Shown piece by piece: positions 15,025 through 48,127 of a stretch of 64,000 nt of DNA. Source of the DNA: Prevotella sp. (GTDB lineage: Bacteria > Bacteroidota > Bacteroidia > Bacteroidales > Bacteroidaceae). The translations under genes were made by a program, and so were the position numbers. The DNA lies in assembly GCA_017619375.1 (NCBI GenBank), contig JAFZSL010000007.1, positions 1 through 64,000 on the forward strand, written 5' to 3'. Below the pieces are notes generated by a model. That model was given only the letters and a program-made list of their open reading frames with translations. It was not told where the DNA came from and did no database searches. The first letter of the stretch is position 1; the number at the start of each line of letters is the position of its first letter.

Positions 15025-15240
15025 ATGGATAAAAGGGCTATTATTCACATATTGATAGTGCTGGTCGTCTCAACGTGTCTGTATATCATCACAAGGTCGT
15101 TTCTCATGTCGTTGGGCATCTTGATGATAATACTGCTCATTGACCAATTGCTCATACAGTATGATAGCAAGCGCCGCAGGAAATGGGAAGAAAGGCAGAA
15201 GCAAGAGAAGATGGAAGAGGAAGAAAATAGTAACGATTGA
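15025..15240 (+). CDS. Small two-helix membrane protein
   Basis: A 71-residue protein: two hydrophobic segments (residues about 6-22 and 27-43, FLMSLGILMIILLIDQLL), then a highly charged basic-acidic tail (KRRRKWEERQKQEKMEEEE). It has no known motif. It is the first gene after the promoter at 14963 and ends 18 bp before the kinase-RapZ gene, so it is co-transcribed with it. A membrane anchor or regulatory subunit for that enzyme is conjecture. Confidence 0.65.
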   Translation: MDKRAIIHILIVLVVSTCLYIITRSFLMSLGILMIILLIDQLLIQYDSKRRRKWEERQKQEKMEEEENSND

Positions 15241-15258
15241 AAATTGCACCACCAATTC

Positions 15259-16770
15259 ATGGAAGAACTAATACGTCTTTTTGAGCAACAATATGGAGAA
15301 CACCCCGTAGAAACCACTTCTATTGCAGGGGCTGGAAGCAATAGAGGCTATTACAGGATGAAACATTCCGACGGAACATCCGTCATTGGTGTGAAAGGAA
15401 CCAGTAGGGAAGAAAACCATGCTTTCATCTATTTGGCCAGGCATTTCGGTGAGCTCAATCTGCCGGTTCCCGCTGTCATTGCTGTGAACAAGGACGAAAT
15501 GTGTTATTTGCAGCAGGACTTGGGGTCGGTTTCGCTTTTCGATGCTTTGCGGCCAGGAAGGGAAGCGGGGGGACAATATAGCGAGAAAGAACAAAAACTA
15601 TTGGTGGAAACCATTAAACAACTTCCTCGTTTGCAAATATGTGGGGCAAGGGGGATGGATTGGGACAATTGTTATCCACAACCCGAGTTCAACGAAGTGA
15701 ATGTAATGCTTGACCTCAACTATTTCAAATATTGTTTCTTGAAACCTTCGGGTATGGATTTTCACGAACTTAAATTGGAGGAAGACTTTCATTTGTTTGC
15801 CAAAGATCTCTTGGAAGAACCGGTCGACAGTTTCATGTATAGGGATTTCCAAGCGCGAAACGTGATGCTCGTTGACGGACATCCTGCCTTCATTGATTTC
15901 CAAGGTGGAAGGAAAGGGCCTTACTTTTATGACCTCGCATCATTCCTTTGGCAAGCATCTGCAAAGTATTCTGACGAATTGAGAAGAAAACTTACCAGAG
16001 AGTATTATGACACTCTGAAAGAATACATTGAAGTGTCTTCCGAACGTCATTTCACCGAACGGCTCTCTTTCTTCGTGTTGTTCAGGACATTGCAAGTCTT
16101 GGGTGCTTATGGTTTCAGAGGCTATTTCGAGCGGAAGCAGCATTTCATCAACTCAATACCCTATGCCATAGAAAACCTCAGGAAATTGCTCGATAACAAG
16201 AGCTTTCCATATCCATATCTTACAAGCGTTTTGAGACAACTTGTCCAACTACCGGCTTACAAGTTTGATGACCAGGGGAGGGACGACAAAAACATTGAGA
16301 CCCATCCCCAGCAACAATACGGACCTGCTTCGATTTCAAAATATGACGGGAAAGGCCCGCTTGTCGTGAGAATTTACAGTTTCTCTTACCGCAAGGGCAT
16401 ACCTGAAGACACTTCAGGAAATGGAGGGGGGTATGTCTTTGATTGTCGCTCCACTCACAACCCCGGACGTTATGTGCGTTACAAGCAACTCAATGGATTG
16501 GATGCCCCCGTCGTCCAATTCCTCGAAGAGGATGGGGAAATCCTCACCTTCCTCGAGAGTGTTTACAAGTTGGCCGATGCTCATGTTGCACGATACATTC
16601 AGCGTGGCTTCACAAGTTTGATGTTTGCTTTTGGATGTACGGGAGGGCAGCATCGGAGCGTTTATTCCGCACAGCATCTGGCTGAGCATATACACAAGAA
16701 ATTCGGCATCGAGGTGAGAGTATGTCACCGAGAGCAAGGCATCACCCAAACATTCAATGCCAATACATGA
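15259..16770 (+). CDS. AmgK-like sugar kinase fused to RapZ C-terminal domain
   Basis: About 503 residues from the ATG at 15259 (a TTG at 15244 would add five residues). Residues 1 to about 330 are an aminoglycoside-phosphotransferase-fold kinase with MYRDFQARNVML (catalytic Asp and Asn) and IDFQGGRKGP (metal-binding Asp). This pattern fits the anomeric MurNAc/GlcNAc kinase AmgK. Residues about 365-500 match the C-terminal domain of RapZ/YvcJ, with RIYSFSYRKGIP, FDCRSTHNPGR and the signature FGCTGGQHRSVY. In E. coli that domain binds glucosamine-6-phosphate and the sRNA GlmZ (established knowledge). The next gene is MurU-like, as in amgK-murU operons of Pseudomonas. A sugar-1-phosphate forming kinase with a built-in amino-sugar or RNA sensor is inference. 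Confidence 0.85.
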   Translation: MEELIRLFEQQYGEHPVETTSIAGAGSNRGYYRMKHSDGTSVIGVKGTSREENHAFIYLARHFGELNLPVPAVIAVNKDEMCYLQQDLGSVSLFDALRPGREAGGQYSEKEQKLLVETIKQLPRLQICGARGMDWDNCYPQPEFNEVNVMLDLNYFKYCFLKPSGMDFHELKLEEDFHLFAKDLLEEPVDSFMYRDFQARNVMLVDGHPAFIDFQGGRKGPYFYDLASFLWQASAKYSDELRRKLTREYYDTLKEYIEVSSERHFTERLSFFVLFRTLQVLGAYGFRGYFERKQHFINSIPYAIENLRKLLDNKSFPYPYLTSVLRQLVQLPAYKFDDQGRDDKNIETHPQQQYGPASISKYDGKGPLVVRIYSFSYRKGIPEDTSGNGGGYVFDCRSTHNPGRYVRYKQLNGLDAPVVQFLEEDGEILTFLESVYKLADAHVARYIQRGFTSLMFAFGCTGGQHRSVYSAQHLAEHIHKKFGIEVRVCHREQGITQTFNANT

Positions 16771-16818
16771 TATGGAATCCCGATATTTAGTATCCCGAAA
16801 TCCCGAAAATTATAAGAG

Positions 16819-17574
16819 ATGAGACAAGCCATGATTTTTGCCGCCGGGTTGGGCACTCGTCTGCGACCTCTTACCGACCATATGCCCAAGGCAATGGTGA
16901 GGGTGGGAGAGAGACCGCTCCTCTGGCATGTCGTCATGAAGCTGAAAGAGGCTGGGTTCGAACGGATGGTGGTCAACGTGCACCATTTTGCAGAACAGAT
17001 AGAAGATTATCTCAGACAAAATGACAATTTCGGACTTGACATATGTCTCAGCGACGAGAGTGATATGTTGCTGGAGACCGGAGGCGGCGTCCGAAAAGCC
17101 ATCCCGCTTTTTGATGCCGACTCCCCGGTATTGATTCACAATGTGGATATCTTGAGCAATATCGACCTTGCCGGCTTTTACAAGGCGGGTGAGGAGAGTC
17201 GGGCGGAAGCGTGTCTGCTCGTGAGTAGAAGGAACACCAAGCGATATCTCCTTATGGATGCAAACCACCGGATGAAGGGATGGACCAATATTCAGACCGG
17301 AGAAGTGAAGCCTTCTCGAGAAATACTTGAAAATGGATTGGTCAAGTATTTCGCATTCAGTGGCATACATTTATTGAAGCCTTCTCTCTTCCCCTTGCTG
17401 GAGTCGTGGCCGCAACGTTTTCCCATCATGGATTTCTATATTCAGAATTGTGGCCAACACTATTTTGAGGGAAAAGAAAAGACTGACCTGCAGCTGATCG
17501 ACGTGGGAAAATTGGACACCCTCGAGGAGGCTGAGAAGTGGATGTCCATTCATCGTTTGACAACATCTAAGTAA
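16819..17574 (+). CDS. MurU-like sugar-1-phosphate nucleotidyltransferase
   Basis: This 251-residue protein starts with the nucleotidyltransferase signature [20 protein letters not shown]. It also has [14 protein letters not shown] and the metal-binding Asp region [10 protein letters not shown]. These match MurU and mannose/glucose-1-phosphate nucleotidyltransferases. MurU makes UDP-MurNAc from MurNAc-1-phosphate in a recycling route that bypasses fosfomycin-sensitive de novo synthesis. Placement 48 bp after the AmgK-like kinase favours this role over a sugar-nucleotide enzyme for LPS or heptose. No left-handed beta-helix acyltransferase domain follows the catalytic domain. Confidence 0.82.
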
Positions 17575-19270: not shown

Positions 19271-20485
19271 ATGAAAAAAGACATTGCTATCTACACGCTT
19301 ACTTCAGGCTTGCACGACGAACAGTCCGTAGCGGCTGTAACGGAAGATTTCTTGAACAGTCTGGGGTTGGCTCATGCATTGCAAGGGGCCGATTTCCGCA
19401 CTTACGGCTCTCATCTACTTGACCTTATTTATGTTCGCACGGGTGGTACCGAAGGCATTTTTAAGAAACTGTTGCCTCAAATGCAACAGATTTCCGACAA
19501 GCCTTTCTTCTTGCTCACATCGGGGAAAAGCAATTCTCTCGCAGCTTCCATGGAAATCTTGTCTTACCTCCATTTGGTAGGCGGCAAAGGGGAAATCATC
19601 CATGGCGACATAGCTTTTGTAAAGCAAAGGATAGACTCTTTGTTGAAAGTGGAAAAGGCTTTGCATAAGTTGCGTGGATGCCGCCTTGGAGTCATCGGGA
19701 AACCTTCCGACTGGCTTATTGCAAGCATGGTTGATGCTGATGTCGTAAAACAAAGGATGGGGGTGGAGTTGGTTGACATCCCTATGCAGGTGTTGATGGA
19801 GGCCATTGATGGCCTTCCATTGGAGCCGGCTCCTTTTACCAATGCCTCGCCAATAGTGAAACAGGCTCTGCCTGGAGCCTCCCGAATCTTAAGGGGATTG
19901 GAGATTGTCGTCAAGGATTTCAACCTACAGGGATTAACGTTAAGGTGCTTTGATTTGTTGGAAACCATCCATAACACCGGGTGCCTGGCTCTTGCCAGAC
20001 TCAACGAGGGCCTTGTGGCATCTTGCGAAGGCGATGTGCCTGCCATGCTTTCCATGTGCATTGCACGACAGCTCATCGGGGTGTCGGGGTTCCAAGCCAA
20101 TCCTTCACGTATCGATGCCTCAAAAGGGGAAATGGTGCTTGCTCATTGCACCATACCTCTTGATATGGTGGACAGCTATGAATTCGACACTCACTTCGAG
20201 TCGGGCATTGGTGTGGGAATACGAGGGCGCATGCATCCGGGGCCGATAACCATTTTCAAGGTTTCCGGTGACCTCTCACGAGTGTTCATCGCAGAAGGCA
20301 TGCTTGTGGAAAACCTTTCGCATCAAGACCTTTGCCGCACACAATTACTCATCCAACTGAATGATGCCTCACAATGCCGATATTTCCTTATCAATCCAAT
20401 AGGCAATCACCATATCGTCTTGCCTGGACATCATCAAGCATTGTTGGAGGATTTTTTCACTCAAATGAATAATATCGAGAAATAA
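19271..20485 (+). CDS. L-fucose/L-arabinose isomerase-like protein
   Basis: The 404-residue protein has an N-terminal Rossmann-like part (IAIYTLTSGLHDEQSVAA) and a C-terminal part with GIGVGIRGRMHPGPITIFKVS. This resembles the fucose/arabinose isomerase C-terminal fold (COG2407-type). Classical FucI uses Glu, Asp and His to bind Mn; a clear set could not be assigned here, so isomerase activity is not assured. There are no sugar catabolism genes next to it. It is flanked on both sides by CCTCCTAAAA arrays, in line with guaA and a HAD phosphatase. Confidence 0.6.
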   Translation: MKKDIAIYTLTSGLHDEQSVAAVTEDFLNSLGLAHALQGADFRTYGSHLLDLIYVRTGGTEGIFKKLLPQMQQISDKPFFLLTSGKSNSLAASMEILSYLHLVGGKGEIIHGDIAFVKQRIDSLLKVEKALHKLRGCRLGVIGKPSDWLIASMVDADVVKQRMGVELVDIPMQVLMEAIDGLPLEPAPFTNASPIVKQALPGASRILRGLEIVVKDFNLQGLTLRCFDLLETIHNTGCLALARLNEGLVASCEGDVPAMLSMCIARQLIGVSGFQANPSRIDASKGEMVLAHCTIPLDMVDSYEFDTHFESGIGVGIRGRMHPGPITIFKVSGDLSRVFIAEGMLVENLSHQDLCRTQLLIQLNDASQCRYFLINPIGNHHIVLPGHHQALLEDFFTQMNNIEK

Positions 20486-20529: not shown

Positions 20530-21243
20530 ATGAAAACCAAGCTCATCATATTCGATTTCGACGGCACCCTGGGTGACACCAGGCGCAATATTGTCACTAC
20601 CATGCAGATGACCATCGCGGAATTGCGACTGCCTAAGCGTAGTGAAAACGAATGTGCCTCTACCATCGGACTCCCTCTTGGTGGATGCTTTCAAGCTCTC
20701 TTTCCTGACATGCAGGCGGATATGGTGCAATGTTGTGTTGACACATATCGGAGAATCTTTGACGAGAACCTGAAAGACATCAAGCCGGAAGCGTTTCCCT
20801 TGGTCGTGGAAACTTTGTCTGCCTTGAAGAGGCGGGGATGCATGCTCACCATTGCTTCGTCACGTTCCAATGCTTCTTTGGTAGAACTTGTCAGGGATAT
20901 GGGGATTGCGGATTGTTTCTCATTACTGATAGGAGCCAATGATGTGGAAAAAGCAAAGCCTGATCCTGAACCAGTCTTGAAAACACTTGACATCCTAAAT
21001 CTTCTCTCCTGCAAGAACTTGATTGATAAAGGCCATGTCGTGAATCAAGAAAGCAAGGCGTATGTCCATGCTTGCCAGGCACTTGTCGTTGGAGATATGG
21101 CTGTTGACATTCTGATGGGTGCCAATGCAGGAGCAAAGACGTGCGGCGTCACCTGGGGTAATGGAACTAAAGAGGAACTTCAACAGGCTGGGGCTGATTA
21201 TCTCATTGACAATATGGATGAACTCTTGGAGATAATTACTTAG
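20530..21243 (+). CDS. HAD-family phosphatase (Gph/PpaX-like)
   Basis: 237 residues. Motif I IFDFDGTLGDT carries the nucleophilic Asp at about residue 10, motif II is in TIASSRSNASL, motif III is Lys in EKAKPDPEPVL, and motif IV is GDMAVDILMGANAGAKTCGV. The helical cap lies between motifs I and II. This is the phosphoglycolate phosphatase-like branch. A slightly long insert (DKGHVVNQESKAYVHACQA) lies before motif IV. The substrate is unknown. It follows the repeat array without a normal ribosome binding site. Confidence 0.88.
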   Translation: MKTKLIIFDFDGTLGDTRRNIVTTMQMTIAELRLPKRSENECASTIGLPLGGCFQALFPDMQADMVQCCVDTYRRIFDENLKDIKPEAFPLVVETLSALKRRGCMLTIASSRSNASLVELVRDMGIADCFSLLIGANDVEKAKPDPEPVLKTLDILNLLSCKNLIDKGHVVNQESKAYVHACQALVVGDMAVDILMGANAGAKTCGVTWGNGTKEELQQAGADYLIDNMDELLEIIT

Positions 21244-45800: not shown

Positions 45801-47960
45801 TTAGAGATAATGTAAGTAATTGTTTCTTTTTTTCATAAAATCGTGAATCCCGGCTTGCCAAGAAAATTGAATATCCTCGATGCTCTGGTCGGCAATAATG
45901 GAATCCTTAAGGATTGTATCACCCATTAAAGTAGTGAAATATGGCTTGAAAAATGGTTGGTTACTCAGTTGGAAATAGGCATCGCGAAGCCACTCAATGT
46001 GCAAGCGTTCCTCCACAATCGCATAGTCATTGGCAAAGGAAACAAGGCTTTCACCATTACAACGAGTGTTTTTATGCAATGGGTTGGTAGCACCTCTCAT
46101 AGATTTTGGAGTGAAAGAATAAGAACCGCGCATTTGGGGATGGCCGAAACAACAGAAAGGATGATTAGTGCCACGGCCAACACTCACAATTGTTCCCTCG
46201 AAAAGGCACAATGAAGGATAAAGATAAACCGACTGCCAATCAGGTAAGTTGGGGGATGGTTTTATTGGTAGTTCGTAGATGGCGCGTCGATTGTAGTTGT
46301 CCATCCAGACCACGGTCAAGTCACATTTCATGCCATTTTTCAGCCACCCTTCGCCATTCACCATCATAGCGTACTCTCCGATAGTCATACCATAGACAAT
46401 GGGAACAGGATGTCTGCCGACTGGGTTTTTCCTATCTCTGGCAGCGGTTGACATAATGGGGCCATCTACATAAAAACCATTGGGGTTAGGGCGGTCGAGC
46501 ACGATGATTTGCTTGTTGTTCACGGCAGATGCCTCCATCATGTCTGTCAGATTGGAGAGATAGGTGAAAAAACGCACACCCACATCCTGAATGTCAAAAA
46601 GGATGACATCGACTTCATTTAAGTCGTCGGGCGATGGGAGAAGCGTATTGCCGTTGTAAATGGAGATGATAGGGAGTTGGGTTTTTGAATCTTTGTCATC
46701 ATTGATTCTTGCACCTGCATCAGCATCGCCTCGGAATCCGTGTTCGGGTGCGAAAATCTTTTTGACTTCAATCCCTTGGGATAATAGGAAGTCAACAAGA
46801 TGACAATTCTTGACCCTGCTGGTTGGATTGCAAACCACACCAATCCGCTTGCCTTGCAGAAGCGGAAGATATTCTCTCGGATGGTCGGCTGCAGCATCAT
46901 ACTTTTCTGCTGGTACGAAAGCCAGGGAAGGCAGTTGGCGGACTTCCCCACCATCATCAAGCCGTTTCGACAAGATGGACTTCGTATGGGCCTTGAGCTT
47001 CCTCACTTCAGATTTGAAAGTCTCGAAGTCGAAGTGAATACCGGGACTTGAAATATCGGCGAACTCGCCATGCTGGTGTGTCTTGGCCCGATACTGCATC
47101 TCCAAAAGAGCGGCCAATTTCACGCAAGCCTCCCACTGCTTGGCACCAATGGTTTCCTTGTTGAAATTGCCTTCGAGACAAATGCCAATTGCACGATTAT
47201 TGATACAAGGTACAAGAGCACCTTTGCTGTCCCGCGGACGTCCCTCAAACACCTTTCCATCCTTCTGGATGAAATAATGGTAGCCAATGCCATCCATGCC
47301 CCTGTTGAGATGCCACTGATGTACTTCTTCAACTGTTTGGTGATTCGGAACGGTAGAATGGTGAATGACGATGTAGTCGGTTTTCTCTCGGGAATCCAAG
47401 GGTGCCTTGAAGGTCAAACGGGAGGAGAAGATGGGAAGACTTATGGCTTCATTTTGCAGCAGGATGAATTTCGTTTCATCGACCAAGCGTTTGAGGCTTT
47501 TCATTGGGAATTTGAGGCCGGGACATAGTTTGTCCACAAATGGAAAATCGCGATGACAACGCAAGGGGGCATCATAAACAACCTGCAGCGTCGCCAGCAA
47601 TTCAACAGGGGCAAGAAGTTGATTGACACTGATATCCTGTCCCTTATATATTTTATTCCCAAAATGACCATCGAAGCAAACCCCTAAGGTACAGTCGTTG
47701 TAGGCCTTTACATGCGAACCTTCGGTGTTTCGTTGCCGTCCTTGGTAGATTTGGCAGTCTTTTTGGTCTATATAATAGTGATAGCCGAAGCCGATCCATT
47801 TCGGTCTATTGAGATGCCACTGATGGACTTCTTGTATAGTGTGATGCGTATTGTGCGTATTGTCAATATTGGGTTCGGAATGGTGGATGACAATGTAGCG
47901 TGTCCACGGGCGGAGAGTGGGCTCCTTTTTGAACTTGAGTTTTGGCCGATGAATGAGCAT
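45801..47960 (-). CDS. PGRP-PGRP-NamZ peptidoglycan-degrading protein
   Basis: About 719 residues from the ATG at 47960; an open frame continues to a TTG at 48032. Residues about 20-180: amidase_2/PGRP domain with YIVIHHSEPN, YHYYI and CHRDFPFVDKLCPG (His and Cys zinc ligands intact). Residues about 190-345: a second PGRP domain with YIVIHHSTVPN, but HGEFADISSPG replaces the zinc Cys by Ser. Residues about 365-719: DUF1343/NamZ (GH171) with GVVCNPTSR, APEHGFRGDADAGA, LFDIQDVGVRFFTYL and RPNPNG. NamZ releases MurNAc from the non-reducing end and amidases remove the peptide, so one protein could convert muropeptides to free MurNAc. Neither start gives a signal peptide, which is odd for such an enzyme. 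Confidence 0.9.
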   Translation of the reverse strand: MLIHRPKLKFKKEPTLRPWTRYIVIHHSEPNIDNTHNTHHTIQEVHQWHLNRPKWIGFGYHYYIDQKDCQIYQGRQRNTEGSHVKAYNDCTLGVCFDGHFGNKIYKGQDISVNQLLAPVELLATLQVVYDAPLRCHRDFPFVDKLCPGLKFPMKSLKRLVDETKFILLQNEAISLPIFSSRLTFKAPLDSREKTDYIVIHHSTVPNHQTVEEVHQWHLNRGMDGIGYHYFIQKDGKVFEGRPRDSKGALVPCINNRAIGICLEGNFNKETIGAKQWEACVKLAALLEMQYRAKTHQHGEFADISSPGIHFDFETFKSEVRKLKAHTKSILSKRLDDGGEVRQLPSLAFVPAEKYDAAADHPREYLPLLQGKRIGVVCNPTSRVKNCHLVDFLLSQGIEVKKIFAPEHGFRGDADAGARINDDKDSKTQLPIISIYNGNTLLPSPDDLNEVDVILFDIQDVGVRFFTYLSNLTDMMEASAVNNKQIIVLDRPNPNGFYVDGPIMSTAARDRKNPVGRHPVPIVYGMTIGEYAMMVNGEGWLKNGMKCDLTVVWMDNYNRRAIYELPIKPSPNLPDWQSVYLYPSLCLFEGTIVSVGRGTNHPFCCFGHPQMRGSYSFTPKSMRGATNPLHKNTRCNGESLVSFANDYAIVEERLHIEWLRDAYFQLSNQPFFKPYFTTLMGDTILKDSIIADQSIEDIQFSWQAGIHDFMKKRNNYLHYL

Positions 47961-48127
47961 ATAGGTTTGGGTGAATGAAATCAGTATGTTTGATGGTACT
48001 TCTCCTGCCTGGAGATTGATTGTTTTGAGCAAACATACAATTTTTTCTTAATTAACAACCGATAATGGCATTTTTTTAAGAAGATTTAACTGTTCTTTCT
48101 AAGTAAAATTTTAAGTTCCGCATTTGC

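Follow-up and report, generated by a model that had tools for sequence, protein, structure and literature searches.

Within the window, i.e., the whole 64,000-nucleotide stretch of Prevotella DNA that was analyzed, the forward strand carries a gene for a fusion of an AmgK-like sugar kinase with the C-terminal domain of RapZ (RapZ_C). A gene for a small membrane protein lies upstream of it and a gene for a MurU-like enzyme downstream. The fusion is encoded by one open frame, which is longest (15244-16770) when read from a TTG start; translation from the first ATG, at 15259, gives a protein of 503 aa (15259..16770, plus strand).

The gene for the MurU-like MurNAc-1-phosphate uridylyltransferase (16819..17574, plus strand; 251 aa) starts 48 bases past the stop codon of the fusion. 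Its product matched the NCBIfam model NF045761 (1e-39) with 136.7 bits, missing the equivalog cut-off of 250. Its best solved structures were 4y7t (1.3e-23; titled “Nucleotidyl transferase”), which we take to be P. putida MurU, and 8hhd (5.7e-20), named N-acetylmuramate alpha-1-phosphate uridylyltransferase. The MurU-like neighbor proposed in the initial annotation is thus borne out by the NF045761 match and by 8hhd as a close solved relative.

The 71-aa membrane protein with a charged tail (15025..15240, plus strand) had no Pfam or NCBIfam family above cut-off. Its homolog was located directly upstream of the fusion in 24 of 80 close loci (the best 80 of 230 relatives, see below) and in one of 59 wider loci (L167, from the same genus). 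A small hydrophobic ORF precedes the fusion in 26 of 78 loci, a few of these ORFs being probably spurious or due to chance. As an accessory of the module, the membrane protein is optional: the suggestion that the module is led by such a protein holds here and in a part of Prevotellaceae but not elsewhere.

Domain composition of the fusion protein

The N-terminal half (15259..16260, plus strand) is an APH-fold, MurNAc/GlcNAc-1-kinase-like domain, as judged from Pfam and NCBIfam matches, conserved motifs, and fold. It matched Pfam APH (1.5e-12, 48.2 bits; cut-off 23.2) and the NCBIfam AmgK model NF045759 (4.7e-22), in the latter case with 78.5 bits, missing the equivalog cut-off of 550; a fold match to 3csv was also obtained (E 7.8e-12). 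Asp196 and Asn201 of the RDFQxRN motif and Asp213 of IDFQ, presumably the catalytic/metal-binding residues of APH-type kinases, are invariant in 16 diverse kinase homologs. Hence, the kinase half displays the AmgK hallmarks, an APH fold with conserved Asp/Asn and a DFx-type motif, and is a probable cell-wall sugar salvage kinase with predicted anomeric MurNAc/GlcNAc activity. Since the AmgK and MurU matches stay below the equivalog cut-offs, we infer the substrates and use the names AmgK-like and MurU-like. A linker (16267..16350, plus strand; residues 337-364), modeled with low confidence (pLDDT <50), connects this half to the next domain.

The RapZ C-terminal domain (16363..16737, plus strand; residues 374-498) matched Pfam RapZ_C PF22740 with 1.5e-31 and 109.6 bits (cut-off 27). 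The NCBIfam RapZ model NF003828 was matched at profile positions 157-277 of 278 only (6.2e-26, 91.5 bits; equivalog cut-off 244), so that the fusion lacks the hallmarks of full-length RapZ, the N-terminal P-loop domain and an equivalog-level score. The 4.26 Mb genome yielded a single RapZ_C match, the one within the fusion; therefore, no separate canonical RapZ was found. The AF2 model of the domain has a mean pLDDT of 90.4, and all 17 of its Foldseek matches at E <= 0.001 were E. coli RapZ chains. Taken together, Foldseek and VIA-align returned RapZ followed by weak phosphofructokinase and P-loop folds, with no protein tyrosine phosphatase (PTP) among the matches listed. The AmgK-RapZ_C fusion claimed initially is real, since APH and RapZ_C both exceed their Pfam cut-offs within one frame. 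A frame artefact, a local oddity, and a chimera are ruled out as explanations: kinase and RapZ_C share a frame in all 80 of the best 80 of 230 relatives.

The putative anion-binding loop C-T-G-G-Q-H-R-S (16636..16659, plus strand) is situated between a strand and a helix in the model and matches C-x5-R-S, the pattern of cysteine phosphatases. Conservation was counted in 138 sequences, after removal of L001, L082-L110, L146, and L147, which repeat places covered under other loci. Every position of the CTGGxHRS loop except x is invariant in 138/138; in the numbering of E. coli RapZ, all the sequences keep D182, R184, N188, C247, T248, G249, G250, H252, R253, and S254. In the E. coli RapZ structures, an anion sits at the place of this loop (PMC5737377), and the C247S replacement inactivates the protein (PMC9841335).

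The N-P-G-R ligand loop (16459..16470, plus strand) is class-specific: Gly takes the place of His190 in 138/138 sequences and Arg or Lys that of Trp191 in 137/138. With His190 lost, the GlcN6P site is remodeled and its ligand may differ from GlcN6P; hence, GlcN6P as the certain ligand of the fused domain was dropped. The H190A replacement is reported to abolish RapZ activity in E. coli (PMC9841335). Other RapZ proteins also have Tyr or Phe at position 190, so the loss of His190 alone does not exclude RapZ function. For the outgroup alignment, 10 non-Bacteroidota loci were taken from 85 records with matches, and one, L179, was left out because its annotation is in pieces. Two Streptomyces plasmids (L176 and L177) encode RapZ_C on its own, in proteins of 160 and 127 aa, respectively, that bear the annotation RNase adapter RapZ; this is another sign that RapZ_C can exist without the P-loop half.

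Occurrence in Bacteroidota and relation to MurNAc metabolism

A scan of genome contigs revealed 230 relatives of the fusion; the best 80 come nearly all from Prevotella or other Prevotellaceae, and the closest ones belong to Prevotella-type genomes. Across the phylum, RapZ_C was detected in 36 of the 296 sampled genomes and a strong kinase match (258 bits or more) in 37, i.e., in all the 36 RapZ_C genomes and in G009, where RapZ_C is missing and MurU comes immediately after the kinase. The kinase and RapZ_C are, then, co-inherited. The clade f17 (63 genomes matched) possesses a weaker kinase homolog (70-150 bits) and lacks RapZ_C. At the family level, RapZ_C is present in 123 of 151 genomes (93 of the 107 good ones).

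Gene arrangement is variable. Fusion-length frames were found in 27 of the 36 RapZ_C genomes; in seven, kinase, RapZ_C, and MurU form three adjacent genes, and in the other two (G180 and G271) the kinase and RapZ_C genes lie apart. Within the 80 close loci (best 80 of 230), MurU is a separate neighboring gene in 45, part of the same frame in two, and not adjacent in 33; three of these 33 loci end less than 800 bases from the fusion, and five contain a MurU-like gene farther away. Of 35 wider loci, 27 have MurU next to the module. A search of genomes with no MurU beside the locus, or with a kinase lacking RapZ_C, turned up a MurU-like gene in 15/15, including G009, the match in G271 containing an in-frame stop; it recovered 3/3 positive controls. 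Kinase, RapZ_C, and MurU are joined in single frames of ~760 aa at L006, L011, L150, and L151. The extra N-terminus of an 860-aa frame at L152 looks like a spurious frame extension. In 35 loci, no other neighbor of at least 100 aa recurred across families besides kinase, RapZ_C, and MurU.

Based on 62 kinase-domain sequences (45 fused, 13 split, four triple), to which the close loci contributed 8 of their 80, the tree requires five changes for the split state and three for the triple fusion, and the well-supported branches alone force the same numbers; the root, and hence the ancestral state, is left free. Collectively, the architecture that the initial annotation had put forward as an undescribed system is real, but it is not confined to the window, being encountered in many Bacteroidota families.

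Several individual records deserve mention. Lone RapZ_C genes with the kinase elsewhere were located at 5935-6336 of L140 and at 5983-6393 of L144; in one case there is a 4-base overlap with an endonuclease I gene, and in the other a gene for an MFS transporter follows after ~30 bases; the transporter had no NCBIfam family match at E 0.01 and so gave no lead. A Parabacteroides distasonis record contains the same gene pair under the names RNase adapter RapZ and nucleotidyltransferase family protein. A full fusion with 67% identity (L195, 1402-2940) is found on MT837446.1, an unannotated, unverified “Bacteriophage sp.” fecal contig, in all likelihood a piece of bacterial DNA deposited under a phage name.

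The MurNAc-6P etherase MurQ (E <= 1e-20) was detected in 212 of the 296 phylum genomes, in 205 of them above the curated cut-off. It is present in 17 of the 36 genomes with RapZ_C, the window genome included, vs. 195 of the 260 without (counts by RapZ_C state were tallied by hand from the result tables). The 65 MurQ-negative genomes without RapZ_C are the 63 of f17, for which the lack of MurQ and AnmK means absence from the positives listed, G009, and one further genome. Outside f17, MurQ is absent from 19/36 RapZ_C genomes vs. 2/197 others (Fisher p 4e-16), and at the family level it is present in 25/123 genomes with RapZ_C vs. 20/28 without (p 4.5e-7), although these tests count related genomes as independent and thereby overstate their independence. 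Thus, the module and the MurQ etherase tend to replace each other, and this inverse relation ties the kinase to MurNAc. Together with the MurU partner, it supports the role in the recycling of a cell-wall sugar, MurNAc, that had been suggested for the locus. In the window genome, the MurQ-like gene adjoins a gene for a PfkB-family sugar kinase (L194, 3078-5015), a candidate MurNAc 6-kinase.

AnmK was found neither in the window genome nor in most of its family (5 of 151 genomes have it), so it fails there as a general source of MurNAc-6P. In the phylum sample, it occurs in 25/36 RapZ_C genomes vs. 182/260 others; outside f17, genomes with RapZ_C have it less often than the others (25/36 vs. 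182/197; Fisher p 4e-4, subject to the same overstated independence). The best match of the window genome to the model of MupP, the MurNAc-6P phosphatase, reached 81.8 bits vs. 359 and has a stop inside. The model separates poorly, since it also matched 11/14 controls and no match attained the cut-off. A HAD phosphatase gene 3 kb downstream of the module (20530-21243, plus strand) is PpaX/phosphoglycolate-phosphatase-like; it was rejected as MupP, its best NCBIfam model being PpaX and its MupP score 52.7 bits vs. 359.

Two further genes of the window were noted. The minus strand encodes, at 45801-48032, a protein of 743 aa in which the exo-beta-N-acetylmuramidase NamZ comes after two amidase_2 stretches; a single chain could thus remove stem peptides and release MurNAc, and might thereby supply the module with free MurNAc. 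A 404-aa protein (19271-20485, plus strand) shows weak matches, far below cut-off, to the C-terminal model of L-fucose isomerase and to that of sulfoquinovose isomerase.

Possible roles of the RapZ C-terminal domain

The AmgK/MurU pathway is known from Pseudomonas. The explanation we favor, with somewhat better than even confidence, is a MurNAc salvage module in which RapZ_C most likely senses a sugar phosphate in cis, the substrates, the ligand, and the direction of control being inferred. Acting on free MurNAc, the AmgK-like domain would place a phosphate at C1; the MurU-like enzyme would then convert the MurNAc-1P into UDP-MurNAc, bypassing MurA/MurB. RapZ_C would represent a metabolic rather than an RNA-adaptor version of the domain, holding an amino-sugar phosphate on the CTGGxHRS loop and tuning the kinase to the bound ligand. 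The occurrence of the fused form across the phylum suggests that the C-terminal half of RapZ is able to serve in metabolism. Feedback by a metabolite acting via RapZ_C, in line with the initial suggestion, is plausible. GlcN6P should occur in any cell making its own wall; this expectation and the tight binding of GlcN6P by the E. coli RapZ C-terminal domain (KD 10 nM; PMC7073468) are the grounds for the sensor reading. Taken separately, the role of RapZ_C as a sensor of the kinase has a little less than an even chance, and another role, e.g., in assembly, is unlikely. The retention of MurQ in 17 of the 36 module genomes and the non-adjacency of MurU in 33 of the 80 close loci (best 80 of 230) count against the module explanation as a whole; the invariant Cys, seemingly dispensable for a pure sensor, would count against the sensor.

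This cysteine is central to a rival explanation, less likely than the sensor, in which RapZ_C is a cysteine-dependent phosphatase of MurNAc-6-phosphate (or a related amino-sugar-6-phosphate) and replaces MupP functionally. MurNAc-6P would then be processed via MurNAc and MurNAc-1P to UDP-MurNAc, in triple fusions within one chain. The invariance of the pocket, C247, R253, and S254 included, and the succession of strand, C-x5-R loop, and helix in the model would be in line with catalysis. Khan and Gorke regarded the RapZ pocket as homologous to the PTP loop and suggested GlcN6P hydrolysis (PMC7199280); likewise, Islam et al. proposed a catalytic -SH and described the density of a probably transformed ligand. 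Among the matches listed, the fold searches gave RapZ and no PTPs. The lactyl group of MurNAc could be accommodated by Gly190 together with Arg/Lys191. The genomic evidence is divided. AnmK (along with the kinase and MurU) is present in 12 of the 19 MurQ-less RapZ_C genomes, where MurNAc-6P should therefore be made and would need a phosphatase; eight of the 12 had no MupP-model match at E <= 1e-10, but four did, among them the best of all (101 bits, G087), and other HAD phosphatases could serve, the MupP model being of low resolving power. For G009 and the 63 genomes of f17, which have the kinase but no RapZ_C and count as two independent points, no AnmK was among the positives listed. On the other hand, AnmK is not enriched with RapZ_C outside f17, and the source of MurNAc-6P is not evident in the window genome and its family, where AnmK is so scarce and RapZ_C so common. 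An extension of the phosphatase idea, which we consider rather doubtful, envisages RapZ_C as an ancient amino-sugar-6-phosphate phosphatase, the Bacteroidota equivalent of MupP fused to AmgK and sometimes to MurU, with the enteric RNA adaptor as its late reuse.

It was also conceived at the outset that control might operate through RNA. In the corresponding rival explanation, RapZ_C would be an RNA binder like its enteric counterpart, and the kinase would take part in RNA-based control of amino-sugar genes. Besides the homology itself, three of the seven basic residues with which E. coli RapZ contacts RNA remain mostly basic in the 138 sequences (R184 in 138, R196 in 134, K170 in 113). The basic character of the other four is mostly gone (K194 in 11, R211 in 12, R238 in none, K251 in four), and His190 is replaced throughout. 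K270, one of four residues whose joint replacement abolishes RNA binding, is basic in 0/138; the other three (281-283) fall outside the aligned stretch, and the 12-residue tail after H276 contains a median of 2 Lys/Arg. Within the window, Rfam gave no match at gathering score, and PMC7073468 describes the RNA-binding domain as restricted to Enterobacteriaceae, which was counted against RNA binding as well. Control through RNA is thus not supported, and we regard it as very improbable. Scarcely more probable is a purely structural role, in which RapZ_C only assembles the enzyme, as a dimer or a kinase-MurU complex, around a vestigial pocket: the E. coli domain can dimerize (PMC7073468) and MurU is often adjacent or fused, but a vestigial pocket is not expected to stay invariant over such a range.

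Relation to known systems and significance

The salvage module with a metabolic RapZ_C, our preferred reading, resembles the AmgK-MurU systems of Pseudomonas, Caulobacter, and Tannerella forsythia in the APH-fold kinase, the MurU-like enzyme often adjoining it, and the inverse relation to MurQ. It differs in the RapZ_C attached or located beside, in the sub-equivalog scores, and in that the window genome lacks AnmK and a clear MupP. E. coli furnished with T. forsythia AmgK and MurU becomes labeled with a MurNAc probe (PMC13041923), and the loss of amgK in Caulobacter increases fosfomycin sensitivity (PMC13046382). With the RapZ/YvcJ family, the fusion shares the C-terminal domain with its CxGGxHRSV loop and D-x-R motif, whereas a sugar kinase replaces the N-terminal P-loop half, Gly190 and Arg/Lys191 are characteristic, and four of the seven RNA contacts are mostly lost. 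Likeness to MupP is limited to the proposed reaction, as MupP has a HAD fold and belongs to a different family; cysteine-dependent PTPs have in common the C-x5-R-S loop between strand and helix, with no overall fold match among those listed. A search of titles and abstracts retrieved no paper on the fusion and none featuring both AmgK and RapZ, although the T. forsythia work may hold an earlier description.

Overall, the fusion is a real, widespread domain architecture within a known salvage pathway, and the public name “RNase adapter RapZ” carried by one such fusion hides a likely cell-wall salvage enzyme. RapZ has been studied as an RNA adaptor, and whether its pocket hydrolyzes the ligand has already been asked by those working on it (PMC7199280). 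Since the fusion keeps the pocket loop, alters a part of the RNA-contact surface, and ties the domain to a salvage kinase phylum-wide, a single protein would suffice to test this question. If RapZ_C is a phosphatase, a gap in the wall recycling of Bacteroidota would be filled; if the ancient-phosphatase reading is true, one polypeptide would turn MurNAc-6P into UDP-MurNAc.
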